DNA from: Acidimicrobiia bacterium
Lineage (GTDB): Bacteria > Actinomycetota > Acidimicrobiia > Spongiisociales > JAHEDJ01
Reading direction: 5' to 3'
NCBI GenBank assembly: GCA_029210695.1
Contig: JARGFH010000016.1
Span: 1-63,316, forward strand
DNA: 63,316 bases
The notes under the pieces are model-generated. The model was not told where the DNA came from. It ran no database searches and saw only the letters and a program-made list of their open reading frames with translations. Below, piece after piece: positions 23,545-56,247 of this stretch. Made by a program: the position numbers and the translations under genes. The first letter of the stretch is position 1. Each line of letters begins with the position of its first letter.

Positions 23545-24606
23545 TCATCCCGACGAAACCCCAACTGAGTCGAGGAAGGGTCGCACCTCGACGGCTTTGC
23601 CGTTGAGTCGACTCGACTCGATGGCAGTGTGGACGATGGCGAGTGCTCGAATGGCGTCGTCCACCTGTACCTCGACGATTGCCTGTCCCCGGGCTGCGCG
23701 TGCGAACTCCTCGAGTTGCTCGCGGAACATGTCGGTTGCGGGAAGGTCGACCGGAGTGCGTTCCTGCTGCCCGTATGCCTGCGAAACCAGACTCGACCAG
23801 GCATCCGCCTCGTGAGCATCATCCCAATGCGAGAAGTCGAGGTCATACATCAGGTTCTGCCGGCTCCCCTGCAACCGGATCTGATAGATCCCGGGAGAGG
23901 CCCAACCGCAACCTAGATAGCCGAGAGCTCCAGACTCGAACTCCAGGATCGCCATCGTGGTGTCCGGCACCTCGGCACTGGTGTACAACTTCCGCGTGTG
24001 GGCAGACACAGCCGCAACCGGGCCGAGCAAGTACTGGAGGTTGTCGGCGTGATGAACTCCCAGTTGGATCAGCGGGCCCCCAGGTGTCTTCGACAGGTAC
24101 CAACGCCAGGTCTCCGGCGTGAGTTCGAGCCCGCGTTCGTTGGAGAAGTTCGCCTCGACCATCGAAACGCCACCGACCGTGCCGTCTTCGATCCACCGTT
24201 TCATAACCCGACTACCGGCCAGGCGTCGAGCACTGTGCCCGACCGCGAAGACGCCACCGGTTTGATCAACGACCTTCTTGATGGCCAGGGCATCTTCGAG
24301 CGTCTGGGCGATCGGTTTGTCGGTATATACGGCTTTGCCCGCTTCGAGTGCCCTGATGATCAGGTCCTTGTGAGTGTCATTGGGAGTCGTGATGACAACG
24401 CCCTCGACGTCGGGGTCGCTCAACAGCTCCTCGTAGGAGGCGGCCGACTTGGGTACACCGTATTCTTCCTGAAAGGCGGTACGGCTGTCCTTGGATCGCG
24501 AGAAGCACGAATACAGCTCGACTAAATCGCCTCGTTGGGCACCGCGCGCCAGCACCCTGGCCCAACGACCAAGACCAACGGATGCAAGCCGAACCTTGTC
24601 ACTCAT
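23545..24606 (-). CDS. Gfo/Idh/MocA-family NAD(P)-dependent dehydrogenase
   Basis: A 353-residue protein. The Rossmann start is VRLASVGLGRWARVLARG. The segment AGKAVYTDKPIAQT holds the catalytic-Lys motif (EKP in most members, DKP here), and GVHHADNLQYLLG carries the substrate-proximal His and Asp. The family includes inositol 2-dehydrogenase and many sugar dehydrogenases. Given the IolM/N/O-like trio later in the window it is a candidate for the first oxidation step, but nothing in the sequence fixes the substrate. TATGGAGGAACG precedes the ATG. It is divergent from the peptide-type ABC operon, with a perfect LacI operator between them. Confidence 0.85.
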   Translation of the reverse strand: MSDKVRLASVGLGRWARVLARGAQRGDLVELYSCFSRSKDSRTAFQEEYGVPKSAASYEELLSDPDVEGVVITTPNDTHKDLIIRALEAGKAVYTDKPIAQTLEDALAIKKVVDQTGGVFAVGHSARRLAGSRVMKRWIEDGTVGGVSMVEANFSNERGLELTPETWRWYLSKTPGGPLIQLGVHHADNLQYLLGPVAAVSAHTRKLYTSAEVPDTTMAILEFESGALGYLGCGWASPGIYQIRLQGSRQNLMYDLDFSHWDDAHEADAWSSLVSQAYGQQERTPVDLPATDMFREQLEEFARAARGQAIVEVQVDDAIRALAIVHTAIESSRLNGKAVEVRPFLDSVGVSSG

Positions 24607-24720
24607 CGTTCCTCCATATCCGCTTCGGATCTCGAGATCGTCACAAACACCCGTTCCTCGATCGTCGATACGAACCCCAATATCACTTGACGCCGCAATT
24701 TCCCCCATTATGGTCATTTC

Positions 24721-24736
24721 GTGCAATCGATTGCAC
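24721..24736. promoter_or_regulatory. LacI-type operator (site B), perfect palindrome
   Basis: GTGCAATCGATTGCAC is a perfect 16-bp palindrome in the 175-bp divergent gap between the dehydrogenase and the transporter operon, able to govern both. It is the best match to the shared motif. Confidence 0.85.
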
Positions 24737-24781
24737 ACCGTCAGGCGTAGCCAAACGATCTACGCCCGCTGAGGAGGAAGA

Positions 24782-33299: not shown

Positions 33300-33703
33300 C
33301 CGACTTCCTCTTCGTCGACTTCGTATCCGGAATCCTCCAGCGAACCGGAGCCACTCCAACCCCACACCAGTACAACCTCTCCGTCGCCGGTGTTGTCGAA
33401 TCCGTGGAAGCGGCCACGCGGCGTCCAGATCACGTCGCCAACACCGGCCGGCTCGGTGCCGAGGTCGGTGTAGATCCGACCTGACCCTTTGAGGACGATG
33501 AAGAACTCGTCGGCGTTGCGGTGTAGGTGCCGGTCGTGACGAGCGCCGGGTGGGAGAACGGTCCAGCCGAGCAAAAAGTCGTCGCTTCCTACCGTGGCCT
33601 TGTCAATGAGGAATTGGACCTGCATATTGATCCAACCTTCGTCCTCCCGCAGTCCCCCAACGTGGGGCACCCTGGAGAGGTTGGTGTGGAATCGCTCGGT
33701 CAT
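33296..33703 (-). CDS. Cupin-domain protein
   Basis: A 135-residue single-domain cupin. The first motif contains HDRHLHRNADEFFIVLKGSGRIY (His, His and Glu metal ligands), and the second is WTPRGRFHGFDNTGDGEVVLVW with the last His. The fold may bind a metal and a small acid or sugar, acting as an isomerase or sensor. It overlaps the dehydrogenase upstream (ATGA) and the hydratase downstream (GTGA). A second, different cupin occurs in the AOR operon. Confidence 0.85.
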   Translation of the reverse strand: MTERFHTNLSRVPHVGGLREDEGWINMQVQFLIDKATVGSDDFLLGWTVLPPGARHDRHLHRNADEFFIVLKGSGRIYTDLGTEPAGVGDVIWTPRGRFHGFDNTGDGEVVLVWGWSGSGSLEDSGYEVDEEEVG

Positions 33704-34575
33704 CGTCCACCCGACAACATGTGATAGACATCGAAGACCGTTACGAAGTCACGGTGATCGATTCCGAGACCGCGACAGGCGTTGAGTAGCTCGTTGGCAA
33801 CTGCGGCGAGTGGTGCCGGTGAACCCTGACGTCGGGCTACCTCCAGGGCCAGCAACATGTCTTTTTGTTGGAGCGTGACGTCGGCGAGTGGCTTCTCCGG
33901 CATCTCGAGAATGAACGGACCCCGATAACCCATCACCGGCGAGGCCACCACACTCTTGAGCATGGCGTCGACCGCCACCGCCCGGTCTACTCCGCCTTTC
34001 TCGGCCAGGGCGACCGACTCGCAGAACACGACCATCTCCACGATCAGAGTCAGGTTGATCGCCACCTTCATCTGGACGGCAGTACCGGACGGGCCGATGT
34101 AGCTGACCTTCGACCCGATGTCGAGCAACACCGGCTCGACCCTGGCGTAGGCCTGCCGGTCACCACCCACCATGATCGAGGCGGAGCCTTGACGAATAGT
34201 CACCGGACTACCCGACAACGGAGCATCAAGCATGACGAGCCCTCTTTCGGAGAAGGCGGCAGCCACCGTCCGGCTAACGTCGGGGTCGATCGTGCTCATG
34301 TCGAGATATACCGCTCCTTCCGGCAATCCGGCAATGACGCCATCGTCGCCAAGTGCAACTGCGGATACCGCGTCTGCGTCCGTGACCATTGAGAAGACGA
34401 GGTCCGACGCCGCCGCCGCCTGGCGGGGAGTGTCTGCCCATCTCATGCCCTGTTCGAGGAGCTGATCGGCTTTCGAAGGCGTTCGGTTCCACCCGGTAAC
34501 TGGGTGACCGGCACCCAGGAGGCGGGGGATGATCACCTGCCCCATATCGCCGAGTCCGATCCATCCCACTTTCAA
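33700..34575 (-). CDS. NAD(P)-dependent beta-hydroxyacid dehydrogenase
   Basis: A 291-residue member of the 3-hydroxyisobutyrate/tartronate-semialdehyde reductase family. The Rossmann motif is VGWIGLGDMGQVII, the substrate-binding loop is LDAPLSGSPVTIRQGSASIMVGG, and the catalytic-Lys region is GTAVQMKVAINL with Lys in the expected position. The start is taken as TTG at 34575, with CAGGAGG upstream. An ATG further upstream would add a non-family leader reaching into the divergent gene. It heads the dehydrogenase-cupin-hydratase operon; the substrate is presumably a 3-hydroxyacid. Confidence 0.85.
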   Translation of the reverse strand: MKVGWIGLGDMGQVIIPRLLGAGHPVTGWNRTPSKADQLLEQGMRWADTPRQAAAASDLVFSMVTDADAVSAVALGDDGVIAGLPEGAVYLDMSTIDPDVSRTVAAAFSERGLVMLDAPLSGSPVTIRQGSASIMVGGDRQAYARVEPVLLDIGSKVSYIGPSGTAVQMKVAINLTLIVEMVVFCESVALAEKGGVDRAVAVDAMLKSVVASPVMGYRGPFILEMPEKPLADVTLQQKDMLLALEVARRQGSPAPLAAVANELLNACRGLGIDHRDFVTVFDVYHMLSGGR

Positions 34576-34699
34576 GAGCAGACCTCCTGTTCTGGTGTCC
34601 TTTCCAACTACGGTAGACGGAGACAAGCGGGGGATGCTGAGCGGAGAGATTCCGGGTAGACCGACCGGTGTGAGGCGCCGGCTGATTCGAGGAGTTGAC

Positions 34700-35857
34700 A
34701 TGACACGGCCGGCCGACTCGAGCGGGTTTCAGCAGGTTGGGCACTCGAATCTCAACGGCTACGGGGACGGGATGCAGGTGATCCGGGACGCCGATGCCCT
34801 CTACGTTGGGCACTTCGGTGTCAGCGGGATGGGTACCAGCGTCCTCGACGTTGGCGACGTGAACAGCCCGACGGTGGTCAAACAATGGAAATCCCCACCG
34901 GGAAGTCATACCCACAAGGTCCAGGTCGCCGACCGGCTACTGCTTGTAAACCAGGAACAGTTTCGCGGAGGCGACCCATATTCGGCAGGCATGGCGATCT
35001 ACAGCTTGGATGATCCTTTTGACCCGCACCAGATCGGGTTCTTTGCGTCCGGCGGCCGGGGCGTGCATCGAATCTGGTGGACGGGCGGGCGGTATGCCTA
35101 CGTATCGGCCATACCGGAGGGATTCGAGGGCCGCATCCTGGTCATCGTCGACATGAGCGATCCCGAGCACCCGGTGGAAGCCGGTCGGTGGTGGACGCGG
35201 CGGGATGGAATCCCTGGAGCGCCGGAACCGGCCACGGCTCGTCCGATTCATCACGCTCTAGTCGACGGCAACCGTGCCTACGTCGGAATGTGGGACCGGG
35301 GGATGACGATCCTCGACATCTCGGACGTCTCTCGCCCTGAGATCGTGTCGACGCTGGACTGGTCGCCTGGTGGCGAGAGCCACACCTGTTTGCCCTTGCG
35401 GGGCCGCGCTCTGGTGGTGACTACCGACGAAGAGACCAAGAATCGTTGCGAGGGTGACCCCCGCATGGCGAGGGTGGTCGACGTGTCTGATGAACGGAAT
35501 CCACAGGTGATTTCCACCTTGCCGGTGCCTGAAGGCGATTTCTGCGAACGGGGCCTACGGTTCGGTGCACACTGTCTTCACGAGAACCGGCCTGGAAGCT
35601 ACATCAGTGAAGAGGTCTTCTTCCTGACCTACTTCAATGCAGGATTGCGGGTGTACGACCTCGCCGACCCTTATCACCCGATAGAGATCGCCCACTGGAT
35701 TCCCGAAACGCCACCTGATCAGGAGGACGTACAGATCAACGACGTGTTCGTTGACGAAGACGGCCTGGTCTATGCCACCGATCGGGTGCTGGGCGGGGTC
35801 TACATTCTGGCGCCCGACGCGCAACTGGCTACCCGAATGCTCGAAGCCTCTTTCTAA
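34700..35857 (+). CDS. LVIVD-repeat beta-propeller protein
   Basis: A 385-residue protein built from LVIVD-type repeats, each a short strand followed by a VxDVSDPxxP-like turn: DVGDVNSPTVVKQW, DMSDPEHPVEAGRW, DISDVSRPEIVSTL, DVSDERNPQVISTL and DLADPYHPIEIAHW. The protein should form a propeller. There is no signal peptide, so it may be cytoplasmic, unlike many relatives. A His-rich region (GSHTHKV, PIHHALVDG) could bind metal. Such proteins are seen near hydroxyacid and selenium/aromatic pathways, but no activity is established. CGAGGAG precedes the ATG. It is divergent from the beta-hydroxyacid dehydrogenase operon. Confidence 0.8.
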   Translation: MTRPADSSGFQQVGHSNLNGYGDGMQVIRDADALYVGHFGVSGMGTSVLDVGDVNSPTVVKQWKSPPGSHTHKVQVADRLLLVNQEQFRGGDPYSAGMAIYSLDDPFDPHQIGFFASGGRGVHRIWWTGGRYAYVSAIPEGFEGRILVIVDMSDPEHPVEAGRWWTRRDGIPGAPEPATARPIHHALVDGNRAYVGMWDRGMTILDISDVSRPEIVSTLDWSPGGESHTCLPLRGRALVVTTDEETKNRCEGDPRMARVVDVSDERNPQVISTLPVPEGDFCERGLRFGAHCLHENRPGSYISEEVFFLTYFNAGLRVYDLADPYHPIEIAHWIPETPPDQEDVQINDVFVDEDGLVYATDRVLGGVYILAPDAQLATRMLEASF

Positions 35858-35954: not shown

Positions 35955-35991
35955 GGTTTAGACTCCGATGATTCGATTAGGAGTGGTCGCA

Positions 35992-37697: not shown

Positions 37698-38077
37698 CCG
37701 TCGTTCATTCCTCCGATCTCAGTTTCAGGGATCTTCCCGGTCGAAGTTCTGCCGACCCATTCCACGACCTCGACCCGGGACCCCTGGCCGTGCGCGTCGT
37801 GATCATCGAGGAACACACCGGGCGAACACCACATCTCCACCCCCACAGCCCCGAGATCATCTACGTGGCCGAGGGCCGAGGAACAGCCTGGCAAGAGCGG
37901 GCGGAGACACATGTGGCCGCCGGCGACATAATTAGGATTCCGCAGAACGTTGCTCACGCGACAATCCCGGAAGCCGGATCGCGACTCAAGTTGATCTGCT
38001 TCTTCCCGCGTGGAGATCTCAGCACGAATCTCGTGGAGCTCGAAGGGACCATTTCGATCGATGAGGAGAGAAGATGA
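37694..38077 (+). CDS. Small cupin protein
   Basis: A 127-residue cupin: TPHLHPHSPEIIYVAEGRGTAW (three His/Glu ligands) and IPQNVAHATIPEAG (fourth His). The frame is open earlier, but the ATG at 37694 overlaps the creatininase stop (ATGA). The protein ends overlapping the AOR start (ATGA). It could be an isomerase or ligand sensor for the operon. Confidence 0.82.
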   Translation: MTVVHSSDLSFRDLPGRSSADPFHDLDPGPLAVRVVIIEEHTGRTPHLHPHSPEIIYVAEGRGTAWQERAETHVAAGDIIRIPQNVAHATIPEAGSRLKLICFFPRGDLSTNLVELEGTISIDEERR

Positions 38078-39900
38078 CGAACGGGCCGCGAGCGGCTACC
38101 GACTACTCGGTGAGTCGCTACCACATTGATCTGACCAACGGGACCGTCCGCTGGGAGCGAACACCCTGTGAAGACCTCGAGGATGCGCTCGGCGGGATTG
38201 CCCGGGCCGCCAAGATACTCGGGGACCAGGCGGTGACCGACGCCTACTCTCCCGACGCGCCGCTCATCATGAATCTCGGCCTGCTCAGCGGAACCCGGGT
38301 CATGACCGGACTGCGGACCTATTTCCACGGATACTCGCCACTCAAAAGTTCACTGAGCGGAAGTCCCGGCCTGATGTGGACGGCTGGAAGCGGCCACTTC
38401 GGCACCAAGCTGGCCGGTCTGGGCATCGACGAGATGGTGTTCACCGGCCGCTCCCCTCGTCCAACCTTGCTGCACCTCACCGCCGGAGACGACCCCGAAG
38501 GTCCGGGCGGGCCCGCCAGGGTCGAGTTCCTCGACGCGACAGACCTGACCGGACGCCTAATAAACGATCGCATCCAGGACCTTCACAGGAGATACCCGGA
38601 GGCCCACTTCGCAGTGATCGGCCCGGCGGGCGAGCACTACGAGTCGGTTCGCTTTGCCTCGATCGCACTGTCCAGCGACAACCAACTGAAGACCGGTGAT
38701 CCTAAACCCCGATTCTGCGGACGGGGCGGCTACGGCGGAGTGATGGGTTCGAAGAACCTCTTCGCCATCGCCGCCGATGGCCCGAACCCGACTGTCTCAG
38801 GAAGGGGCCTCAAGGACATCAACCGTGAGATCAACCTCGGCGAAGGCAGCAAGCCGTACCGGGACGACGGCGCCGGCGGAACCTGGCGCCATGTGAAAGC
38901 TCAGCACGAAATTGGCGGCCTACCGGAGTTCAATTTCAATCCACCCGGAACCGAAGACGCGGTCGCCCTGCGACGGGCTTCCGTCGAAGCTGGCCCCTTC
39001 ACCGTCAAGGCGGAGAGCTGCTACCTGTGCGGCATCAAATGCCACAAAAACGTCTACGACAAACGGAGCGACGGTGAGGCGGGCCCGTTCCGCGCCAAGG
39101 TGGACTACGAACCCTGGGCCCTTCTCTCGTCCAATCTCGGGCTGTACGACCAGGACACGGCGTTGGACCGCGTCGAACTCGTAGATCAGCTGGGCATGGA
39201 TTCGATCTCGCTCGGAGTGACACTTGGATTCGTCATGGAACACAACCGCCGTCACCCCGACCAGGCCATCGCAGGTGGGCTGTCCTACGGTGACGCGGCA
39301 GCCGCCGAGGAGGCCATCCTTGCTGTTGGCGAAGGCCGGCTGCCCGACATCGGCGAAGGCTCGCTTCGTCTGGCCCGGCGACTCGAGGCTCTGGAATACG
39401 CTATGCAGTCGAAAGGCGTTGAGTACCCCGCCTACCTGCCGCATACGAACCCGGGATACCCCTGGTCGCTGGCCGGTGGCCACATGGGGATGCGCACCTT
39501 CCTCCTGGCGATGATCGAACGTGAGACGGGCCTCGATTACTGGGTCGACGCCATCACCAACCGGGGGCCGATGATCATGCTCGACGACATCACCGGGCTT
39601 TGTAAGTTCGCAGCCCTCGATCCAGAGACCGAGGCCGAAGCCCTCCACCTGGCGGCCGGCCTCGAAGTGACGGGCGACGATCTGCGGGCGGTGGTGGGCC
39701 GCACCTATTTGCGGGGCTATGCCAGCGAACGGCGGCAGGGCTTCACCGAGTCCGACTACGTCGTTCCGGATGAAGCGCACATGCCCGCCGAGCACAGCAC
39801 CCTGCCCCGATTCAACACGCCCGACTTCTTCGCGCAATTGCAGGAACGGGTCCTGGCGGTCTTCGACGCCCGCGCTCGAGAAGAGGGTTATCTGGCATAA
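38074..39900 (+). CDS. Tungsten-type aldehyde:ferredoxin oxidoreductase (AOR family)
   Basis: A 608-residue protein with typical AOR length and order. The N-terminal domain (YFHGYSPLKSSLSGS; GSGHFGTKLAGLGIDEMVFTG) binds the bis-pterin cofactor. The 4Fe-4S cluster is held by Cys 316, 319 and 323 (SCYLCGIKCHKN) and Cys 510 (GLCKF). Pterin-loop features such as RFCGRGGYGGVMGSKNLFAIAA are present. AORs oxidise aldehydes to acids with ferredoxin and need W (or Mo) and low potential; they are best known from anaerobes. No ferredoxin or cofactor-insertion gene is adjacent. It is the last gene of a four-gene overlapping operon. Confidence 0.9.
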   Translation: MTNGPRAATDYSVSRYHIDLTNGTVRWERTPCEDLEDALGGIARAAKILGDQAVTDAYSPDAPLIMNLGLLSGTRVMTGLRTYFHGYSPLKSSLSGSPGLMWTAGSGHFGTKLAGLGIDEMVFTGRSPRPTLLHLTAGDDPEGPGGPARVEFLDATDLTGRLINDRIQDLHRRYPEAHFAVIGPAGEHYESVRFASIALSSDNQLKTGDPKPRFCGRGGYGGVMGSKNLFAIAADGPNPTVSGRGLKDINREINLGEGSKPYRDDGAGGTWRHVKAQHEIGGLPEFNFNPPGTEDAVALRRASVEAGPFTVKAESCYLCGIKCHKNVYDKRSDGEAGPFRAKVDYEPWALLSSNLGLYDQDTALDRVELVDQLGMDSISLGVTLGFVMEHNRRHPDQAIAGGLSYGDAAAAEEAILAVGEGRLPDIGEGSLRLARRLEALEYAMQSKGVEYPAYLPHTNPGYPWSLAGGHMGMRTFLLAMIERETGLDYWVDAITNRGPMIMLDDITGLCKFAALDPETEAEALHLAAGLEVTGDDLRAVVGRTYLRGYASERRQGFTESDYVVPDEAHMPAEHSTLPRFNTPDFFAQLQERVLAVFDARAREEGYLA

Positions 39901-40425: not shown

Positions 40426-41499
40426 ATGCCCGATCAGTCGATGGATGCACTCGTCCTATTGGGTCCCAACGAGTTCGAGATTCAGAGCACCGGGATCCCG
40501 ACTCCTGCCCGGCACGAGGTGCTCTGCAAGGTGCACTCGGTAGCGATCTGCGGAACCGACAAGGAGATCATCTCGGGAAACTTCCTGAAGCGCGGTTGGC
40601 CGCCCGGCTATCCCTACACACCGGGTCACGAGTGGTCGGGCGAAGTCGTTGCCCTCGGAGACGAGGCAGAGGGGTTTGGTTTTTCCGTCGGTGATCGGGT
40701 GGCAGGGACGGCGCATTCGGGCTGCGGGTACTGCCGGATGTGCACCATCGGCCGCTACACCCTTTGCGAGAACTACGGACACGAGGAGCGCAACCACCGG
40801 CACTACGGCCACTACAGCACCGGCGCCCTCCGCCAGTTCCACAACAGTTCGATCAAGTCGGTCTTCCACATTCCCGACTCGATGACCCTGGAGCAAGCCG
40901 CCCTGGTGGATGCCAGTTCCATCGCCCTCCATGCAGTCAAGCGCGGCAAGGTGATGCCGGGCGATACTGTGGCAATCGTCGGACCGGGAGCCCAGGGTTT
41001 GCTGGCGGCCCAGTGCGCCGCTCAGTTGGGCGCGGCGCGGGTGATCGTGGTTGGCCGAGGGTCGCGACTCGAGACCGCCGCCGCCCTCGGCGCGGAAGTT
41101 GTCGACAACAGTCAAGTAGATGGCCCCCAGGCCGTACGCGATCTCACCGGCGGCCGGGGCGCCCACATGACGGTCGACACCGCCGCCCGGGGTACGTCGA
41201 CCCGCGACGCGATCGAGATGACGAGGAAGGGGGGGCGAGTCGCACTGATCGGCGTTCCCCTGGAGGCTGCCGAACTCCCGCTCAGCCGGATCGTCATCGA
41301 GGAGATGGATCTCTACGGCGTCCGGGCCAATCCCGGGGAGTGCGCGGAGATCATCCCGCTCATCGCGGCCGGCAAGATCGACGTCGACATCGTCACCACG
41401 CACAGGTTCCCGCTGAAGGACTTCGGCCAGGCCTACGAGACATTCACCAAGCGCATCGACGGGGCTATCAAGGTCCTGGTGCAGCCCAACGCGGAGTAA
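40426..41499 (+). CDS. Zinc-dependent dehydrogenase, IolM (scyllo-inosose 3-dehydrogenase)-like
   Basis: A 357-residue medium-chain dehydrogenase. Catalytic zinc ligands are in VAICGTDKE (Cys) and TPGHEWSGEV (His, Glu), and the structural-zinc lobe is CGYCRMCTIGRYTLC. The NAD-binding motif is VAIVGPGAQGLLAA. Sequence alone would give only a sugar dehydrogenase. The two following genes match Thermotoga IolN and IolO, which makes the IolM role likely: oxidation of 2-keto-myo-inositol (scyllo-inosose) at C3. GGAGAAGGAG precedes the ATG at 40426, favoured over an earlier in-frame start. Confidence 0.82.
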   Translation: MPDQSMDALVLLGPNEFEIQSTGIPTPARHEVLCKVHSVAICGTDKEIISGNFLKRGWPPGYPYTPGHEWSGEVVALGDEAEGFGFSVGDRVAGTAHSGCGYCRMCTIGRYTLCENYGHEERNHRHYGHYSTGALRQFHNSSIKSVFHIPDSMTLEQAALVDASSIALHAVKRGKVMPGDTVAIVGPGAQGLLAAQCAAQLGAARVIVVGRGSRLETAAALGAEVVDNSQVDGPQAVRDLTGGRGAHMTVDTAARGTSTRDAIEMTRKGGRVALIGVPLEAAELPLSRIVIEEMDLYGVRANPGECAEIIPLIAAGKIDVDIVTTHRFPLKDFGQAYETFTKRIDGAIKVLVQPNAE

Positions 41500-41528
41500 T
41501 TGCTCGGCAAACAAGGAGGACAGTGGTC

Positions 41529-42506
41529 ATGAGTAAGTGGCAGATCCCCCCGGATGGCGGCCACATGGAACGCCCATCGGGCATCTACTACCAGACCATG
41601 ACGGGGAAGCAGATCGAAGATCGGCTGAAAGAGAACGATCTGATCATCATCCCCATCGGGAGCAGCGAGAATCACGGTCTGGCTCAGAATCCAGGCGAGG
41701 ACACATTCCTCGTCACCCGGCAGGCAGAGCAGATCGCGGCCAAGACCGGGTGCACAGTGGCAGAACCCATCTGGTACGGGTCCCATCCCTTCCATCACCT
41801 GGGCATGCCCGGCAACATCGTCATCCCTGAGGAGACCTTCAATGCCTACCTGCGAGCGGTCATCGCCGGGTTCTGGAATGCCGGTTTTCGCAAACAGATT
41901 CTCCTGAACGGCCACGGCCAGGACTACGTGATCCCGGCCGCAATGCACCAGTTCGGCAAGAAGTATCAGGTGCCCTGCATTCTGGTCAACGTCAACTGGT
42001 GGTTCGTGATCCCGGAGCACCTCCGCGACAAAGAACACGGAGGACCGTTCGAGACTCCGTTCATCCACGGCGACGAGTGCGAAGCTTCGTTTGCGATGGC
42101 TCTCTTCCCTGAGTTCATCGACATCAAACACGCGCAGAAGACGTCGTTCACTCCGTTGCTGCCTCCCGGACACATCAACAAGTCGGGTTCGGCTCTTCCC
42201 CTGGCGGAGGCGCCGCTGCCGTTCTGGCAGCAGGTTGGTGGTTCACCGCTCGAGGTGGTAGCCACTCCGGAGGGCACCGTTGGTGACGCCACCCTGGCCG
42301 ATCCGGAGAAGGCGAGGGGTGGCGTGAATGCGATCCTCGACTATCTCGAGCGACTGGTCAATGACATCATGGAGATGTATCCGCCCGGGAAGCTGCCGCC
42401 GATCGAACAGGTGAGTATGCGGCCCCGGGAGGACGTTGAAGCGGTGCTCAAGGGCCCACTGGAGCCGGGCGGCCGGCATCTTTACACGTTCGCCTATCCG
42501 CCGTAA
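41529..42506 (+). CDS. Creatininase-superfamily ring-opening hydrolase, IolN (3-dehydro-scyllo-inosose hydrolase)-like
   Basis: A 325-residue protein with PIGSSENHG and GEDTFLVTR as metal-binding loops, WYGSHPFHHLGMPG, FRKQILLNGHGQDYVIP, NWWFVIPEHLRDKEHGG and HGDECEAS carrying the late Glu. It closes with the PPGKLPPIE and LYTFAYPP tail. These segments, recalled from the Thermotoga maritima family, distinguish it from ordinary 250-residue creatininases. The expected reaction opens the diketo-inositol ring to 5-keto-L-gluconate. AAGGAGGACA lies 8 bases before the ATG. It follows the IolM-like gene by 29 bases. Confidence 0.83.
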   Translation: MSKWQIPPDGGHMERPSGIYYQTMTGKQIEDRLKENDLIIIPIGSSENHGLAQNPGEDTFLVTRQAEQIAAKTGCTVAEPIWYGSHPFHHLGMPGNIVIPEETFNAYLRAVIAGFWNAGFRKQILLNGHGQDYVIPAAMHQFGKKYQVPCILVNVNWWFVIPEHLRDKEHGGPFETPFIHGDECEASFAMALFPEFIDIKHAQKTSFTPLLPPGHINKSGSALPLAEAPLPFWQQVGGSPLEVVATPEGTVGDATLADPEKARGGVNAILDYLERLVNDIMEMYPPGKLPPIEQVSMRPREDVEAVLKGPLEPGGRHLYTFAYPP

Positions 42507-42544
42507 GTCGGGGTCGCCGGCGGATCAGGAATAGATTGAGGTTC

Positions 42545-43354
42545 ATGTTCAGAACCAGCATGGCAATCTCGCCCACCCCGGCCGAGTTTGCCCCGCTGCT
42601 CTTCGCCGGGGATTGGAAAGGGGCGCTCGATGCCGCCGCCGATCTTGGGTACGACGCAATCGAGATGAGCGTCCGCGACCCGGCCGATCCGGCGGTTGTG
42701 TCATGTGATGCCGAAGCCCGCCGGCGGGACATTCGAGTCTCGGCGATAGCGACAGGACAATCCTTCTACTCGGACGGGTGGTCGCTGACCGCCGACGATC
42801 CGGGGATTCAAACATTGCTCGAGCAACGGATGCGCCGCATCATCGACCTGGCTGCCCCCTGGGAGGCACTCGTTGTAATCGGCGGCGTCCGCGGGACGCT
42901 GTCCGGATCAGATGGCGAACGAGTCGATCAGTATCGCCGGGCACTGGAAGCCGTCCGACGCTATGCCGAGTATGCACTCACACTCAACGTCTCTCTGGCG
43001 GTTGAACCCATCAACCGATACGAAACCAATTACCTAAACACAATCAGGGAAACCCTGCAGTTCGTTGGCAATGTCGGTCTAAGCAACGTAGGCATTCTGC
43101 CCGACACCTTCCACATGAATATCGAAGAGGTTTCATTGGCCGAGTCGTTGCGATCGGCCGGGAAGCTGATCCTGCACACGCAGTTCACCGACAGCAACCG
43201 GCTGGCGGCGGGGCAAGGTCACGTTGACTTCCGGGTTCTGGCAGGGGTGCTGCGGGAGCTCGACTATTCCGGCTACCTCTCAGCCGAGATATTGCCTCAT
43301 CCCGACAGCCGAACCGCCGCCCAACAGGCGATCGAATTCTTCAGAAACCTATGA
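42545..43354 (+). CDS. Sugar epimerase (xylose-isomerase-like TIM barrel), IolO (5-keto-L-gluconate epimerase)-like
   Basis: A 269-residue TIM barrel with VVIGGVRGTLSG, AVEPINRYETNYLNTIRETL (metal Glu), VGILPDTFHMNIEEVSLAESLR (Asp, His), FTDSNRLAAGQGHVDFR and YLSAEILPHP (Glu). These match the diagnostic segments of the Thermotoga IolO group, notably the Asn-Arg-Tyr-Glu-Thr and Asp-Thr-Phe-His-Met-Asn stretches. The expected product is D-tagaturonate, which would go on to KDG. ATG at 42545 follows GATTGAGG; a TTG three codons earlier is possible. It is the last gene of the IolMNO-like run. Confidence 0.83.
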   Translation: MFRTSMAISPTPAEFAPLLFAGDWKGALDAAADLGYDAIEMSVRDPADPAVVSCDAEARRRDIRVSAIATGQSFYSDGWSLTADDPGIQTLLEQRMRRIIDLAAPWEALVVIGGVRGTLSGSDGERVDQYRRALEAVRRYAEYALTLNVSLAVEPINRYETNYLNTIRETLQFVGNVGLSNVGILPDTFHMNIEEVSLAESLRSAGKLILHTQFTDSNRLAAGQGHVDFRVLAGVLRELDYSGYLSAEILPHPDSRTAAQQAIEFFRNL

Positions 43355-47600: not shown

Positions 47601-47685
47601 AACGCACTCCGAATCTCAACGGCCACCCGCTTCTGGTGCGAAGCTAGCACTCCGGCTCGGGGCGATTGGTGGAGAGGCACGTGAA

Positions 47686-49361: not shown

Positions 49362-50735
49362 ATGGTTCGACGCACGAGATTCCTGACCGTCTTGATGGTG
49401 ATGGCAATGGTGGTTGCTGCCTGCGGGAGCAGCGAAGACACGACCACGACGACCACGGCCGGCACCGCCACGGATACCACGGCCGGCACCGCCACGGATA
49501 CCACGGCCGGCACCGCTCCTTCGGAAGATCCGATCGTGTTCGCCGCCTCGTTGCCGCTTACCGGCGACTTCGCCATCCCGGGCAGCAAGCATGCCGACGG
49601 CTACAAGTACTGCGTTGAGGAAATCAATGCACGCGGCGGGCTTCTCGGACGAGAGGTCGAGCTGATCGTCGAGGACAATCGATCCGACCCAGAAATAGCC
49701 GTTTCGCAGGTGCAGCGTCACATCGACGTCGAGAACGCCGATGCGTTGCTCGGAACGTTCTCCAGCTTGCTCACCTTCCCAGCTTCAACCGTCGCTAATC
49801 AGGCCAACATGGTGTACCCGATCCCATCGGGTGGCGCTCTTCGAATCTGGGAGCGAGGATTCCAAAACATCTTCTACTTCCAGCAGAACGCCGCCGAGTT
49901 GATCGGCTACTCGCCGGTCTCGATGATCGAGTACTACACCGACCAGGGCATCATCGATCCGAAGCCCACTACCGTTGCCATCGTCCACGCCGATGACTTC
50001 TTCGCAGACGCGATTGTCAAGGGGCTGGTTGGTGGTGAGGTCGCCATTCCTGACTCGGATGTCGTTGTGCAGGTCGAAGGTTACCTGGAGCCGGCCGGCA
50101 TCGAGGCCGTATTCGTTGAGCAGTGGCCGGTTCCGTTCACCGATTGGCTGACTCTGGCCAACTCCATGAAGAACAGCGGAGCGGACATGGTGTTCGCAGC
50201 CACCGCGTCGCCGGACGAAGCCATTTCGCTCGTCGATGCTCTCAAGACGGTGCAGTACAACCCGCAGCTGATCTGGATGTCCCAGGGCGCGCAATCCGAG
50301 TTCATTGAGACTCTCGGAGATTCGGCCCAGGGCGTGACCATTCACGCTTCCTGGCACCCGCTCGCCAACTGGGAAGGGATCATCGGCGGAGAGACCTTCA
50401 CCAACCAGGACTTCATCGAAGGTTTCACCGCATCGTTTGGGCGAGCCCCGGACGAGGATGAGGCCATTCCGTTCGCGCTCTGCCAGGGCATCGAACAGGC
50501 CATCATCGGAGTCGGATCGACCGACAACGTCGCGATGGCTGAATGGATGCACGCCCGAACGGCGAGCGATCCGGTCCGAACCGTTCTCGGCGACTTCGTG
50601 TGGGACGAGCGCGGCCTGCCGGTTGACCGCTCACTGATCATGGTGCAGTGGCAGGGCGGCGACCTCAAGTTCGTCTTCCCGGTGGGTGAGTTCGAGGGCA
50701 CAGTTGATCTCATCTACCCGAAGCCGGCTTTCTAG
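49362..50735 (+). CDS. ABC transporter substrate-binding lipoprotein (LivK / HAAT type)
   Basis: A 457-residue protein with a lipobox VVAAC and a linker of three near-exact TTAGTATD-type repeats, encoded by 24-bp repeated units. A type-I periplasmic binding fold follows: IVFAASLPLTGDFAIPGSKHADGYK, GREVELIVEDNRSDPEIAVSQVQRHI and IPSGGALRIW. HAAT-family proteins bind amino acids but also aromatic or alicyclic acids, urea and others. The ligand here is unknown. GGAGGTAGCGC precedes the ATG. A strong hairpin separates it from the ATPase gene. Confidence 0.9.
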   Translation: MVRRTRFLTVLMVMAMVVAACGSSEDTTTTTTAGTATDTTAGTATDTTAGTAPSEDPIVFAASLPLTGDFAIPGSKHADGYKYCVEEINARGGLLGREVELIVEDNRSDPEIAVSQVQRHIDVENADALLGTFSSLLTFPASTVANQANMVYPIPSGGALRIWERGFQNIFYFQQNAAELIGYSPVSMIEYYTDQGIIDPKPTTVAIVHADDFFADAIVKGLVGGEVAIPDSDVVVQVEGYLEPAGIEAVFVEQWPVPFTDWLTLANSMKNSGADMVFAATASPDEAISLVDALKTVQYNPQLIWMSQGAQSEFIETLGDSAQGVTIHASWHPLANWEGIIGGETFTNQDFIEGFTASFGRAPDEDEAIPFALCQGIEQAIIGVGSTDNVAMAEWMHARTASDPVRTVLGDFVWDERGLPVDRSLIMVQWQGGDLKFVFPVGEFEGTVDLIYPKPAF

Positions 50736-50757
50736 GCCGGCATTGACAAATGACGCA

Positions 50758-50790
50758 GGATGGGGCATCGGCCCAGCCGGTGCCCCATCC
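50758..50790 (+). terminator. Hairpin between LIV-type binding-protein and ATPase genes
   Basis: A 15-bp stem GGATGGGGCATCGGC/GCCGGTGCCCCATCC with one wobble pair and a 3-base loop. No T run. Same position as the hairpin in the peptide-type operon. Confidence 0.78.
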
Positions 50791-50897
50791 CCAACTCTTC
50801 GAAGAGGCCATGGGGACCCATCTCTCGAGGAATCTGGAGGTTCACGCGTGAGCGCGTGTCAAGGCAAGACGAGTGTCGGAGGACATTCGTGGGTGTG

Positions 50898-51626
50898 ATG
50901 CTTCAAGCACGAGGTTTGGACAAGAGTTTCGGCGGCATTCGAGCCGTCAACGACTGCAGCTTCGACATTGAAGAAGGCACGATAACCTCCCTGATCGGAC
51001 CGAACGGCGCTGGCAAAACCACCACGTTCAACCTCATCAACAACGTCATCAAAGCTGATTCCGGCTCGGTGAAGTTCGAAGGCGCCAACATCACCAACAA
51101 GATGCCTCACAAGCTCACCCGGCTGGGCATTGGTCGGACGTTCCAGGTCACCAGAGCCCTCGATGACATGACGGTGCTCGAAAACATGGTCGTCGGGTCT
51201 TCGACCGACAATCTGCGGGGGATCATCGGTTCGCGGATGCTGGATTCCGAGATCGAACGAGCCCTCAGCCTGCTCGAATTCGTTGGGATTGAGCAATACG
51301 CCTACTCGCGAGCGGAGTTGCTGTCGTACGGACAGCGCAAACTGCTCGAATTCTCAGCAGTTCTCATGTCCAACCCGCGCCTCGTCATGCTGGACGAGCC
51401 GGCCGGAGGAGTGAATCCGGCTCTATTGGAGAGAATGGTGGACCGAGTCCGCCAATTGAACGGGCAGGGTCTGACCTTCTTCATTGTGGAGCACAACATG
51501 GACCTCGTCATGGATCTGAGCGACTCTGTGATCGTGATGGCCCATGGAGAGGTCCTGATCCATGGGACACCCGAAGAAGTGCAGAATGACGGCCGGGTGC
51601 TCGACGCCTATTTAGGGATGGCGTGA
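50898..51626 (+). CDS. ABC transporter ATPase, LivG type
   Basis: A 242-residue ATPase: LDKSFGGIRAVNDCSFDIEEG, Walker A GPNGAGKT, TRLGIGRTFQ (Q-loop), signature-like LLSYGQRKLLE, Walker B LVMLDEPAGGVNP and H-loop VEHNM. The LivG-specific region before the signature is present. The start is placed at ATG 50898 after GTCGGAGGA; GTG codons at 50889 and 50895 are alternatives. The LivF-type partner follows after one base. Confidence 0.9.
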   Translation: MLQARGLDKSFGGIRAVNDCSFDIEEGTITSLIGPNGAGKTTTFNLINNVIKADSGSVKFEGANITNKMPHKLTRLGIGRTFQVTRALDDMTVLENMVVGSSTDNLRGIIGSRMLDSEIERALSLLEFVGIEQYAYSRAELLSYGQRKLLEFSAVLMSNPRLVMLDEPAGGVNPALLERMVDRVRQLNGQGLTFFIVEHNMDLVMDLSDSVIVMAHGEVLIHGTPEEVQNDGRVLDAYLGMA

Positions 51627-51627
51627 C

Positions 51628-52368
51628 ATGCCACCCATTCTCGAGATCACGAACGTCGATGCCGGCTACGGAGCCGGACCGAACATCCTTCAGGGTCTGT
51701 CGCTCAAAGTCGAAGAAGCGAAGTCGTATTGCATCATCGGCCCAAACGGTGCCGGCAAATCAACGCTGCTCAAGGTGATCGCCGGTCTGCTTCCCCCGCG
51801 GTCGGGCGACGTCGTTTTTCGGGGCGAATCGCTGGCAAGGCGAAGGCCTGATCAAATTCTGGCCACCGGAGTGTGCTTCGTCCCCCAGGATCAGGCGCTA
51901 TTCCCCGAGATGACTGTGCGCGAGAACCTGATAATGGGCGGCTATCTGGTCAAAGACCGGGCTCTCATTCGACAGCGGATGAAGCGGGTGTTCGAGATGT
52001 TCTCTATTCTCGAGGAACGAGCGGGCCAGGACGCCGGCAAGCTCTCCGGCGGGCAGCAGCAGATGCTGGCAATGGGCCGAGCCCTCATGATCGACCCCAT
52101 CCTCCTGATGCTCGACGAACCTACTCTCGGGCTGGCACCCCAGGTGGTTGAGCAGATCTTCGCTCAAGTCAGAGAGTTGGAGAGCCTGGGAATCACCGTG
52201 GTGATCGTCGAGCAAAACGCCCAGCGCGGGCTCGAACTCGCCGATTGGGGTGTAGTTCTCGACCTGGGCATCGTCCGCTTCGAAGGCCCGGCAGAAGGGA
52301 TTCTCGAGGACCCCCGGATCCGAGAGCTATACCTCGGAAAAGCAGCGGGCGCCGGAGAAGCGAAATGA
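51628..52368 (+). CDS. ABC transporter ATPase, LivF type
   Basis: A 246-residue ATPase with Walker A GPNGAGKS, Q-loop FVPQDQALFPEMTVRENL, signature LSGGQQQMLAMG, Walker B LLMLDEPTLGLAP and H-loop VEQNA. All segments are standard. Its stop overlaps the LivH-type permease start (ATGA). Confidence 0.92.
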   Translation: MPPILEITNVDAGYGAGPNILQGLSLKVEEAKSYCIIGPNGAGKSTLLKVIAGLLPPRSGDVVFRGESLARRRPDQILATGVCFVPQDQALFPEMTVRENLIMGGYLVKDRALIRQRMKRVFEMFSILEERAGQDAGKLSGGQQQMLAMGRALMIDPILLMLDEPTLGLAPQVVEQIFAQVRELESLGITVVIVEQNAQRGLELADWGVVLDLGIVRFEGPAEGILEDPRIRELYLGKAAGAGEAK

Positions 52369-53264
52369 CGCATGTGATTCAGGTTGCGATCCTCGGGCTA
52401 CTGCTGGGCGGTGTCTACGCCCTCATGGCGGCCGGTCTGACTCTCGCCTTTGGCGTAATGCGGATCGTCAACCTCGCCCACGCCGTGTTCATCATCGGCG
52501 CCGCCTACATCTCATTCTTCGCCTGGGAGCAGCTCGGCATCGATCCACTTGTATCTGTTTTGTTCGTCATACCTGTGATGTTCCTATTCGGCGTAGCCGT
52601 CTATCAGGTCCTGTTCAGGAGGATCGAAGGAACGGCCAGATATACCGAAATGACCGTGTTACTCACCTTTGGTATTGCACTCACCATCGAAGGCCTCCTC
52701 GGGTTTGCCTTTACCGGTATCTATCGCAAAGCGAGCCCCGGGTACGCCACCGATTCGTTCATCGTCGACGGCTTGTTCTTGCCGGATGGTGACATCCTCT
52801 TCATCCCGAAGGGCCAGCTCTATGCATTGATGACGAGCCTCGTCTTGCTGATCGGGCTGTGGGCATTTCTGCGCTACAGCCAGACGGGCTATGCCATTCG
52901 CGCCACGATGCAGAACCGGGCCGCCGCCCAGATCGTTGGCGTAAACGTGCGCCGGGTGTCTGCGATCTCCTTTGGCTTGTCGGCCGCCCTCGGAGGAGGC
53001 TCCGGAGCCCTGATGAGCTACCTCTTCCCGTTCTTCCCCTTCCGTCATTGGCAATGGGTGGCGGTCCTGTTGGCGCTGGTTGTACTGGGTGGCATGGGGA
53101 GCATCAAGGGAGCCGTCATTGGAGCTCTGGGACTCGGCGTGGCCAGTTCATTCGTAGTTGATCAGATCGGTGCTACCTGGGGTCCGATGACCTTTTATCT
53201 GGCGCTGTTCCTGATTCTGCTCGTCCGGCCGCGCGGATTGTTCGGCAAGGAGTTGGCGGTATGA
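52365..53264 (+). CDS. ABC transporter permease, LivH type
   Basis: A 299-residue permease: LGGVYALMAAGLTLAFGVMRIVNLAHAVF at the N-terminus, the EAA-like cytoplasmic loop around IRATMQNRAAAQIVGVNVRRVSAISFGLSAAL, and VVLGGMGSIKGAVIGAL. About eight helices. The ATG overlaps the LivF-type stop, and its own stop overlaps the LivM-type start. Confidence 0.92.
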   Translation: MTHVIQVAILGLLLGGVYALMAAGLTLAFGVMRIVNLAHAVFIIGAAYISFFAWEQLGIDPLVSVLFVIPVMFLFGVAVYQVLFRRIEGTARYTEMTVLLTFGIALTIEGLLGFAFTGIYRKASPGYATDSFIVDGLFLPDGDILFIPKGQLYALMTSLVLLIGLWAFLRYSQTGYAIRATMQNRAAAQIVGVNVRRVSAISFGLSAALGGGSGALMSYLFPFFPFRHWQWVAVLLALVVLGGMGSIKGAVIGALGLGVASSFVVDQIGATWGPMTFYLALFLILLVRPRGLFGKELAV

Positions 53265-54298
53265 TCGAAGACCGGGCTGCAGCAAGTCCAGAAGACCCAG
53301 TTCCCGAGCCCGGGAGAGTTCAGCCCCCGCCGGGTCCGGCCCGCTATCGCTGGTACGTGTTGGCGGGGCTGCTCATCGCCCTGTTCGCCTTGCCGTTGTT
53401 CCGCCCGATGATCAGCTCTTACAGCTACATCATGACACTTGGCGCGTTGGTCTTCATGTGGGTGGCAATGGCGTCGAGTTGGAACATACTCGGCGGGTTC
53501 GCCGGATACATCTCTCTGGGCCACAGCGTGTTCATGGGCGTGGGCGGCTACGTAGCCGGCGTCTTGCTCTACTACCACAACATCAGCCCGTTCCTGACTG
53601 CAGCCCTCGGAGGTCTGACGGCAGTGGCGCTCGGCTTCCTTGCCGGATTCATCACCTTGAGGACCCGTGGCCCGGCCTTCATCATCTCTACCATCGCGCT
53701 GTTGTTCATGTTCCTTCTCTTGTTTGACAACATCGAATACCTGGGCGGCACAGCCGGCCTCCCTCTGCCCTCTCCGCCCTTCTCTCAGGAATGGCTGCGC
53801 ACCCCGTTCTACTATGCGATGCTCGTAGCCGCGATGGGGTCGGTGTGGCTGTCCTATCGAGTGGCGCACTCGAAGTTCGGCATGGGTCTGCGGGCGATCG
53901 CCGAGGACGAGGTCAAAGCCGAGGTCGCCGGGGTTCCCACCCGTAGCTACAAGATCTCAGCGTTCGCCATCAGCGCGTTCTGGGTAGGAGTCGTCGGGGC
54001 GATCTATGGATACTCGATCGCATTCGTGCGGCCGACCGTGTTCTTCACGGTGGCGATCTCAGCGCAGATGGTTCTGATGGCCATCATTGGCGGAAAGGGC
54101 ACGATCGCCGGGCCTGTGGTCGGTGCGGTCCTCATCTACGCCATCAATGAGCTCTCGCTCATTGTCTTCGGAGCCACTGAGCTCAATATCGTAATTCAAG
54201 GTGGCCTGCTGGTGGCCGTCTTGTTGTTCTTCCCGCTCGGCATCGTGGGAACGCTTCGCAAGAGGAGCTGGCTACCGGCATTTCTCGACTGGGATTGA
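53261..54298 (+). CDS. ABC transporter permease, LivM type
   Basis: A 345-residue permease with a hydrophilic ~35-residue N-terminus, then ASSWNILGGFAGYISLGHSVFMGVGGYVA (the family N-[IL]-x-G-x-x-G-x-[IL]-S-x-G-H region), the loop LRAIAEDEVKAEVAGVPTRSYKISAF, and IIGGKGTIAGPVVGAVL. It completes the five-gene importer. It ends 24 bases from the converging KDG kinase gene. Confidence 0.92.
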   Translation: MIEDRAAASPEDPVPEPGRVQPPPGPARYRWYVLAGLLIALFALPLFRPMISSYSYIMTLGALVFMWVAMASSWNILGGFAGYISLGHSVFMGVGGYVAGVLLYYHNISPFLTAALGGLTAVALGFLAGFITLRTRGPAFIISTIALLFMFLLLFDNIEYLGGTAGLPLPSPPFSQEWLRTPFYYAMLVAAMGSVWLSYRVAHSKFGMGLRAIAEDEVKAEVAGVPTRSYKISAFAISAFWVGVVGAIYGYSIAFVRPTVFFTVAISAQMVLMAIIGGKGTIAGPVVGAVLIYAINELSLIVFGATELNIVIQGGLLVAVLLFFPLGIVGTLRKRSWLPAFLDWD

Positions 54299-54322: not shown

Positions 54323-55423
54323 TCAACGGATCACCCGTGCCCCGGAGGCCCCAATAGCTCGTTCGACTTCAGCCAGGGTGACCATCGACGTGTCTCCCGG
54401 GGTCGTCATTGCGAGGGCTCCGTGGGTGGCTCCGTAGTCGACCGCTTCCGCAGGAGTCTTGCCGGCCAGAAACGCGAACGCCATGCCGGACGCAAACCCG
54501 TCACCCCCGCCGACCCGGTCGTAGATCTCCAGGTTCTCGCGTTGACGTGCGACATGAAGCTCGCCATCGGCGTAGAGCACTGCGGACCAGTCGTTGAGCG
54601 TGGCGGTCTTGGCATTGCGCAGAGTGGTGGCGACCACCTTGAAGTTGGGGTATTGGTCAACCACCGACGCAATCATCCGACCGAAGGCAGTGGGGTCGAG
54701 TTTTGAAAGTGATCCGTCGACGCCCTCAACGGCGAATCCGAGCGAGGCGGTGAAGTCCTCCTCGTTGCCAATCATCACGTCGACCATCGGAGCGATGGCT
54801 CGATTGACCTCGATGGCCCGGTCGCTTCCGCCGTGTGACTCCCACAACGAAGGCCGGTAGTTGAGATCGTACGAAACCACCGTCCCATGTTGCTTGGCCG
54901 CCGTGATCGCCTCGATGACAACTTCGGGGGTCGAGGCAGACAACGCCGCGAAGATCCCGCCGGTGTGAAACCACCGCACCCCTTCCTGACCGAACAGCCG
55001 GTTCCAGTCGATATCCCCCGGTTGCAGTTGTGAGGCGGCGGTGTGCCCGCGATCCGAGGTCCCGAGGGCAGGCCTGATCCCATAACCCCTTTCGGTGAAG
55101 TTGAGACCAACCCGTGACGTACGACCGAGCCCGTCGTAGGGCACCCATTTCAGATGCGAAACGTCCACTCCGCCGGTGAGGATGAGATCCTCCACCAGAT
55201 GCCCGACCTCGTTGTCCACCAGGGCGCTGACCAGAGCAGTGCGGAGGCCAAAGCACTTGCGCAACGCGCGCGCCACGTTGTACTCGCCTCCCCCTTCCCA
55301 GACGCTGAACGACCGGGCGGTCCGCACCCTTCCCGAACCAGGGTCGAATCGCAACATGACCTCACCGAGCGCGGCGGCATCCCAGCGGCACTCATCCCGA
55401 CCTTTCAACTCCAGTGCTGGCAT
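54323..55423 (-). CDS. kdgK: 2-keto-3-deoxygluconate kinase (PfkB/ribokinase family)
   Basis: A 366-residue PfkB sugar kinase. GGGEYNVARALRKCFGLRTALVSAL is the N-terminal substrate motif and DLNYRPSLW the mid motif typical of KDG kinases. DRVGGGDGFASGMAFAFL is the catalytic DTxGAGD-like motif, with Val-Gly for Thr-Gly-Ala. KDPG aldolase follows immediately, so phosphorylation of KDG to KDPG is the likely step. AGGAGAGAA precedes the ATG. It is the last gene of the long minus-strand run beginning near 60.2 kb, or an operon with kdgA. Confidence 0.85.
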   Translation of the reverse strand: MPALELKGRDECRWDAAALGEVMLRFDPGSGRVRTARSFSVWEGGGEYNVARALRKCFGLRTALVSALVDNEVGHLVEDLILTGGVDVSHLKWVPYDGLGRTSRVGLNFTERGYGIRPALGTSDRGHTAASQLQPGDIDWNRLFGQEGVRWFHTGGIFAALSASTPEVVIEAITAAKQHGTVVSYDLNYRPSLWESHGGSDRAIEVNRAIAPMVDVMIGNEEDFTASLGFAVEGVDGSLSKLDPTAFGRMIASVVDQYPNFKVVATTLRNAKTATLNDWSAVLYADGELHVARQRENLEIYDRVGGGDGFASGMAFAFLAGKTPAEAVDYGATHGALAMTTPGDTSMVTLAEVERAIGASGARVIR

Positions 55424-55467: not shown

Positions 55468-56136
55468 CTAACGGAGACTCGAAATCGTTGCGATGACATC
55501 GGTGGTTCGCTGTTCAAGAGCGCTCCAATCGCCTGCCTCAACGAGGTCCTTGCTGACCAGTTTGGAGCCTATGCCTACACACGGGACCCCCGCACCGAAC
55601 CACGCGGCTAGTGACTCTTCCGTGACGTCGACGCCGCCCGTGGGCATGAGGAGAGCCCATGGACAAGGTGCGAGGACCGCCTTGACGAAAGCGGGGCCTC
55701 CCACCAAGCCGCCGGGGAATATCTTCACGATTTCACAACCGAGTTCGTGAGCGAGGGCGATTTCGGTCGGCGATGCGCACCCCGGTGAGTAGGCAACCTT
55801 CCGCCGGTTGCACACCTCCGCCACGCGACGGTCGAGGATCGGGCCAACCACGAAGCTGGCCCCAAGGTTGACGTACATTCCGGCGGTCACGTCATCGACC
55901 ACCGAACCAACGCCGAGGATGACCTGCGGATGCTGCTCGGCGCAATGTCGCTCCAGCTCAGAGAACACTTCGAAAGCGTGATCGCCCCGATTCGTGAACT
56001 CGATAAGCCGGGCACCACCGCGGCTCAATGCGTCGACGATCGACCGAGCCGTGTCGATGTCTCCGTGGTTGAATACGGGTACTAGCCCAACCTCGATCAT
56101 CGTGTTGAGCACCGTGAGCCTCGAGAATCTCGCCAT
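55468..56136 (-). CDS. kdgA: KDPG/KHG aldolase
   Basis: A 222-residue class I aldolase barrel. LIEFTNRG holds the catalytic Glu and CEIVKIFPGGLVGG holds the Schiff-base Lys; PGCASPTEI and LLMPTGGVDV complete the site. It splits 2-keto-3-deoxy-6-phosphogluconate to pyruvate and glyceraldehyde 3-phosphate. The start at 56136 (MARFSR) has GGAG at the right distance; the ATG five codons earlier is less well placed. With the kinase it forms the exit to central metabolism. Confidence 0.9.
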   Translation of the reverse strand: MARFSRLTVLNTMIEVGLVPVFNHGDIDTARSIVDALSRGGARLIEFTNRGDHAFEVFSELERHCAEQHPQVILGVGSVVDDVTAGMYVNLGASFVVGPILDRRVAEVCNRRKVAYSPGCASPTEIALAHELGCEIVKIFPGGLVGGPAFVKAVLAPCPWALLMPTGGVDVTEESLAAWFGAGVPCVGIGSKLVSKDLVEAGDWSALEQRTTDVIATISSLR

Positions 56137-56247
56137 CTTGTCTCCGACCATCCTGATTGATGAATGCCCACCCCGGGCGGGACACGCTGACCTTAGCGAG
56201 GTGGGCTAGATCAAATCCAACACCGAAACGCTCTCTGCTGCCTTCAA

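Follow-up and report, generated by a model that had tools for sequence, protein, structure and literature searches.

To our knowledge, few routes for the breakdown of inositol have been described. The classic iol pathway comprises IolG, IolE, IolD, IolB, IolC, an aldolase and IolA, and Thermotoga maritima reportedly uses an inositol pathway made up of IolG-IolM-IolN-IolO, said to have been worked out by Rodionova et al. in 2013 (cited in PMC12632266 and PMC3750489). The locus analyzed here lies on a 63-kb contig (JARGFH010000016.1; 63,316 nucleotides, referred to below in its entirety as the window) of a 3.9-Mb draft genome, 97.85% complete, of an Acidimicrobiia bacterium, and is centered on three adjacent genes (the trio) for a zinc dehydrogenase, a hydrolase of the IolN type and an IolO-like epimerase. 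An IolO-related enzyme also occurs in the L-glucose/L-galactose pathway of Luteolibacter LG18, where the 5-keto-L-gluconate 4-epimerase LguG, which was found by its similarity to IolO, makes D-tagaturonate; a tagaturonate reductase (annotated as a D-altronate oxidoreductase), altronate dehydratase, 2-keto-3-deoxygluconate (KDG) kinase and 2-keto-3-deoxy-6-phosphogluconate (KDPG) aldolase then follow (PMC12632266). Sulfoquinovose degraders split 6-deoxy-6-sulfofructose with either a transaldolase (sulfo-TAL) or a transketolase (sulfo-TK) (PMC11659671).

We propose, with confidence and doubt in about equal measure, that the trio may be the ring-opening core of a route for a cyclitol, most likely inositol, that would be continued by transaldolase cleavage. 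A pair of dehydrogenases (the zinc dehydrogenase, perhaps with the product of a Gfo/Idh/MocA gene) would make a diketo-cyclitol, IolN would hydrolyze the ring of this compound to give a 5-keto-hexonate, and the IolO-like epimerase would invert the carbon next to the ketone. The transaldolase encoded at 19.1 kb would then break the C3-C4 bond of this open-chain keto-acid and either transfer the dihydroxyacetone unit onto a sugar phosphate or release it, leaving tartronate semialdehyde, a three-carbon aldehyde acid, to be reduced by the 33.7-kb dehydrogenase or oxidized by an aldehyde oxidoreductase. The substrate, the carbon that the zinc dehydrogenase would oxidize and every reaction after IolO are what we infer here.

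The trio genes are co-directional, with intergenic gaps of 29 and 38 bp and a Shine-Dalgarno-like stretch before the starts of the first two; the IolO start is most likely 42545, because the alignment with the T. maritima protein TM0416 begins there. An original prediction, made from the DNA alone, had read the trio as the IolM, IolN and IolO of a Thermotoga-type inositol route in an actinobacterium. The gene order and positions agreed in coordinates, strand and Pfam content (ADH_N/ADH_zinc_N; Creatininase, 1.4e-43; AP_endonuc_2, 1.1e-34), and the motifs that it had named were present in the translations, with NRYET and DTFHMNIEE common to TM0416. For the overall route, the membership of IolN and the kinship of IolO were upheld, while the IolM assignment and the lower route were not. 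The naming used here rests on curated NCBI models, with TM0416 and a Cloacimonadota locus (L038) as references.

The middle gene scored 507 bits on the curated IolN model NF041098, far above the cut-off of 245 (E = 1.6e-152), and matched the creatininase fold (PF02633, 149.5 bits). Residues resembling metal ligands (E47/H49, D58, H129 and D182/E183) were invariant in 14 of 14 aligned sequences, with metal binding predicted. Judged by sequence, membership of the IolN family is firm. An alignment scan of bacterial genomes detected 18 loci with 69 to 98% identity to the window IolN in five phyla, namely, Acidimicrobiia-type actinobacteria, Chloroflexota (including the isolate Pelolinea submarina), Cloacimonadota, Spirochaetales and Coprothermobacterota. 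The nearest of these (82 to 98% identical) came from metagenome genomes titled Actinomycetes or Acidimicrobiia, some from the window genome's own order, in agreement with an actinobacterial host. Locus L038 contained IolN (74% identical to that of the window), transporter genes, IolO and a true IolM (530 bits; cut-off, 450) within 8 kb, the IolN being 4 to 5 kb from the IolO and IolM, and this gene set ties the IolN clade of the window to the Thermotoga-type pathway. Of 396 genomes sampled in the class to which Pelolinea belongs, 102 carried IolN-family genes, which fell into several clades; many of the more distant members adjoined IolM-type and IolG-type genes. A plasmid search gave no match to IolN, and a solved IolN structure was not found. 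Some Chloroflexota IolN operons also held an extra TIM-barrel epimerase and DUF6282 proteins (L039, 12255-13088 and 13116-14114).

The epimerase scored 260 bits on NF041099, under the cut-off of 300; this was nonetheless its top family, with a runner-up of 110 bits. Its best match in the PDB was TM0416 (E = 7.7e-51; 176 bits versus 93 for the next PDB sequence), and its identity to TM0416, at ∼38%, exceeded that of the IolO found near true IolM in L038 (30%). The assignment as IolO-like was thus borne out by the nearest characterized relative and fell short on the curated cut-off; the kinship to IolO appears strong.

The gene at 19.1 kb was assigned to the transaldolases by a score of 134 bits versus 27 on PF00923, by a Schiff-base lysine (K141) that was invariant in nine sequences and by an AlphaFold model (pLDDT, 80) with a TM-score of ∼0.7 to solved transaldolases of Neisseria and Corynebacterium (7oey and 7bbx). 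It belongs to a divergent group: an orthologue in locus L050 failed the curated models for the housekeeping enzyme (EC 2.2.1.2; 109 versus a cut-off of 367), and the window genome holds a separate, more typical transaldolase (269 bits on PF00923). Orthologues with 56 to 68% identity to the window copy were present in 8 of 14 non-actinobacterial IolN loci. In five Chloroflexota and Spirochaetota loci (L041, L042, L047, L049 and L050), the transaldolase started 2 to 92 bp behind IolO, and most of the copies directly behind IolO were 61 to 68% identical to that of the window. A close relative (G001) carried the transaldolase, an aldehyde oxidoreductase, the zinc dehydrogenase, IolN and IolO within 9.2 kb, and in a genome from another family (G092), ∼0.3 kb separated the transaldolase from an IolN belonging to a second clade. 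A CoA-acylating aldehyde dehydrogenase followed the transaldolase in L041, L047 and L050; that of L050 scored 594 against the 600-bit cut-off for the sulfoacetaldehyde dehydrogenase SauS and, as this is just under the cut-off, a sulfonated substrate is still barely conceivable there.

At other IolN loci, a transketolase stood in this place. A split transketolase and a type II glyceraldehyde-3-phosphate dehydrogenase (GAPDH-II) lay beside IolO in three non-actinobacterial loci (L046, L051 and L143), accompanied in L046 by phosphoglycerate kinase (PGK), and no transaldolase was seen in these loci within the stretch read. Similarly, an Acidimicrobiia-type genome (G047, locus L183) whose IolN was 94% identical had GAPDH-II, PGK and both transketolase halves on the IolN contig, and the divergent transaldolase family was not found in that genome. 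By analogy with the sulfoquinovose degraders, which show this kind of alternation between transaldolase and transketolase, the acidic ketose that leaves IolO in open-chain form would serve as the donor. The aldehyde oxidoreductase was also associated with IolN. Orthologues 84 to 93% identical occupied the same place, just upstream of the trio, in G001 and in a genome of the same genus (G002), and genes of this family were located 74 to 3,802 bp from IolN, on the same strand, in 14 Chloroflexota loci that were read (L144-L172). The Chloroflexota proteins were only ∼25 to 29% identical to that of the window. The link between this family and IolN is thus present in two phyla; oxidation of a short aldehyde acid would be a fitting role for such an enzyme. 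The transaldolase and the aldehyde oxidoreductase (38 to 39.9 kb), both of which had been missed in the original prediction, are the partners best supported by comparison. A title-level literature search found nothing relevant on inositol and transaldolase or on tagaturonate or fructuronate and transaldolase. We suggest, more tentatively and with belief a little short of even, that a previously undescribed transaldolase family splits nonphosphorylated 5-keto-hexonates. In this reading, the family and its transketolase alternative would do for carboxylates what sulfo-TAL and sulfo-TK do for sulfonates, draining keto-acids derived from inositol in several phyla, and the short aldehyde acid would be dealt with by either an aldehyde oxidoreductase or a CoA-acylating aldehyde dehydrogenase.

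The zinc dehydrogenase scored 171.6 bits on the IolM model (NF041097; cut-off, 450), barely above its threonine dehydrogenase score, and fell outside the IolM clade in a tree with support of 100/100 for both groups. The predicted IolM-like identity therefore held at the superfamily level only, and a diverged IolM was not supported by the score (172 versus 450 bits) or by the separate clade. Orthologues of the window enzyme, 73 to 94% identical, adjoined IolN in several Acidimicrobiia-type loci. A single IolN clade was thus accompanied by three types of dehydrogenase (IolM, a Chloroflexota type and the window type) with ∼25 to 30% mutual identity; as these form separate clades, IolM is the wrong name for the window enzyme, which may nevertheless share the chemistry of IolM. 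The Gfo/Idh/MocA gene, proposed earlier as the first step, was the best match in the genome to the IolG model TIGR04380, at ∼121 to 122 bits, far below the cut-off of 355; its conservation alongside the cluster in G002 (87% identity) and G010 (66%) lends some support to such a role. Given a dehydrogenase that is not IolM, the substrate of the trio might be a different cyclitol from myo-inositol, or it might be myo-inositol attacked at another carbon, and the finding of three dehydrogenase clades with the same IolN clade, like the failure to find IolG at Chloroflexota transaldolase-type loci, is consistent with this. We consider it rather doubtful: across five phyla, identity in IolN stays at 69% or more despite the differing dehydrogenases, which suggests one shared diketo intermediate.

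The genome was searched for the enzymes of the recognized lower routes, one family at a time. No hexulosonate reductase of the mannitol-dehydrogenase family (UxaB/UxuB, PF08125) was detected in the genome at an E value of 0.01, and no mannonate dehydratase (UxuA, PF03786) was detected, with the T. maritima control positive for both families; altronate dehydratase (UxaA, PF04295) was likewise absent from the genome, with a T. maritima control that was not positive for PF04295. IolD (TIGR04377) and IolC (TIGR04382) were not found in the genome at E values of 1e-100 and 1e-50, respectively. Since none of these enzymes was found, neither the Thermotoga lower route nor the classic iol route was recognizable. 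The predicted continuation through 5-keto-L-gluconate and D-tagaturonate was not sustained, as the genome search for the UxaA and UxaB families found no known hexulosonate-processing enzyme. PF08125 was also missing from 12 of 15 other IolN genomes, including that of Pelolinea. Tagaturonate reductases of other families may be present in the window genome.

A KDG kinase-like gene and a KDPG aldolase gene were located 11 to 13 kb from the trio, as had been predicted. A Thermotoga-like ending, in which the 5-keto-hexonate would be reduced and dehydrated to KDG by unrecognized families and then processed by the kinase and aldolase at 54 to 56 kb, seems improbable. The pair occurs on the IolN contig in the window and in G133 (L074; 74 to 84% identical), a more distant version of it does so in a genome from Chloroflexota (L179), and several SDR and other dehydrogenases near it are candidates for the KDG-forming steps. 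Against these observations stand the missing PF08125, PF04295 and PF03786 members and the remaining IolN loci scanned, at which the pair was not seen; moreover, the pair may equally serve an adjoining uronate block (a GH88-like protein at 46209-47600 and an SDR at 45442-46212).

The transaldolase was also associated with inositol genes outside IolN loci. It was present in 21 of 198 relatives, and IolD or IolN was detected in 16 of these 21 carriers versus 43 of 177 noncarriers (Fisher p, ∼4e-6, with kinship ignored). Transaldolase and IolD were on one contig in nine genomes; the iol operons with the transaldolase also held IolG, IolE, IolB, IolA and an inositol-monophosphatase-like gene, and a 45% identical copy closes the iol gene set of the Clavibacter plasmid pCI3. 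Both routes make a 5-keto-hexonate, and hence the two settings would be accounted for by a single class of enzymes that use such acids. It is quite unlikely that the transaldolase serves inositol gene sets in another way (through sugar-phosphate balancing or a side product) without acting on the IolO product. That full iol operons with the transaldolase already possess IolC and a Cgl0159-type aldolase points in this direction; the gap of just a few bases that separates the transaldolase from the preceding IolO in several operons and its alternation with transketolase beside IolO point away from it. A role as a general stand-in for IolC and the aldolase was rejected, with IolC detected in most transaldolase genomes that have IolD and a Cgl0159-type aldolase in L092, L095 and Clavibacter. 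Acidimicrobiia-type iol operons in the range L082-L096 also carried inositol-monophosphatase-like, glycerophosphodiesterase and phosphoesterase genes, which suggests possible use of phosphoinositol or glycerophosphoinositol.

Several observations weigh against transaldolase cleavage of the IolO product. In the window, 21 kb of DNA with an oligopeptide-type transporter separates the transaldolase from the trio, and a copy was not seen in 5 of the 9 IolN genomes among relatives, some of which are 77 to 81% complete. IolG was not found at the non-actinobacterial transaldolase-type IolN loci. The association with IolD or IolN was based on counts that were not corrected for phylogeny, and in Clavibacter pCI3, as in some Acidimicrobiia-type operons, the transaldolase occurs together with IolC and a dedicated aldolase. 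Finally, D-tagaturonate lacks the 3S,4R pattern that is usual for transaldolase donors, and therefore the stereochemistry of the keto-acid or of the enzyme would have to differ.

Many window genes from 19 to 49 kb recurred on one contig of G002 (Table 1), including those for the Gfo/Idh/MocA protein (87% identity), the tartronate-semialdehyde-reductase-like protein (87%), the aldehyde oxidoreductase (84%), the zinc dehydrogenase (89%) and IolO (77%). The place of IolN in G002 (L079, 5382-6491) was held by a second-clade IolN ∼40% identical to that of the window. Orthologues of the 33.7-kb dehydrogenase, 85 to 88% identical, were present in the clusters of G001, G002 and G010, and genes for branched-chain-type ABC transporters also adjoined IolN in L036, L037, L074 and L075. 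SDR, GH88-like and flavin-oxidoreductase-like proteins (45442-49122) were kept beside the IolN cluster in G002, G123 and G133 and perhaps hydrolyze uronic or inositol glycosides; the structure model of the GH88-like protein was poor (pLDDT, 41.5) and was not used. A second, short creatininase-family protein (36948-37697) adjoined a D-2-hydroxyacid dehydrogenase (35968-36951), and both were kept in G002 and G010.

Table 1. Coordinates of the window genes discussed in the text and basis of their assignment
Feature	Coordinates	Strand	Basis or remark
Divergent transaldolase-family protein, proposed to split the IolO product	19114..20208	+	GTG start at 19114; TAL_FSA PF00923
Gfo/Idh/MocA dehydrogenase, candidate for first oxidation	23545..24738	-	TIGR04380 below cut-off; conserved co-location
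Beta-hydroxyacid dehydrogenase, nearest tartronate-semialdehyde reductase	33700..34701	-	TIGR01505 197 bits vs cut-off 340.75, lead only
Tungsten-type aldehyde:ferredoxin oxidoreductase family protein	38074..39900	+	AFOR_N and AFOR_C; upstream of trio
Zinc-dependent medium-chain dehydrogenase, first trio gene	40426..41499	+	Pfam ADH_N/ADH_zinc_N
IolN, 3-dehydro-scyllo-inosose (diketo-inositol) hydrolase family, creatininase superfamily, 325 aa	41529..42506	+	NF041098
IolO-like 5-keto-hexonate epimerase, TIM barrel, 269 aa	42545..43354	+	NF041099 kinship, TM0416
ABC transporter, branched-chain amino acid type (binding protein, two ATPases, permeases), possible importer	49362..54298	+	
PfkB kinase, KDG-kinase-like; role in route uncertain	54323..55423	-	84% identical on IolN contig of G133
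KDPG/KHG aldolase; role in route uncertain	55468..56151	-	NF005499 312 bits vs cut-off 275; 74% identical in G133

If transaldolase cleavage of the IolO product is correct, an IolN-opening module that apparently avoids KDG would add a carbon route to mostly uncultured groups (Acidimicrobiia-type, Chloroflexota, Spirochaetota and others) and would provide an enzyme open to direct testing, namely, a transaldolase that uses a sugar acid. By analogy with sulfoglycolysis, transfer-type cleavage may be a strategy of general use for acidic ketoses.

Compared with the classic iol pathway, the window system has in common a transaldolase family that is embedded in some iol operons and differs in that IolD and IolC were not found in the genome. 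The Luteolibacter LG18 pathway likewise has an IolO-related epimerase, whereas the window genome is without a recognized tagaturonate reductase or altronate dehydratase. The likeness to the inositol pathway of T. maritima lies in IolN, as identified by the curated model, and in an IolO relative ∼38% identical to TM0416; the window system differs in being without IolM or a recognized hexulosonate reductase or dehydratase and in having a transaldolase and an aldehyde oxidoreductase as partners. With sulfo-TAL and sulfo-TK it shares the same two cleavage alternatives, which here lie beside IolN and IolO, in the company of ring-opening cyclitol genes and with a carboxylate presumably in place of the sulfonate.

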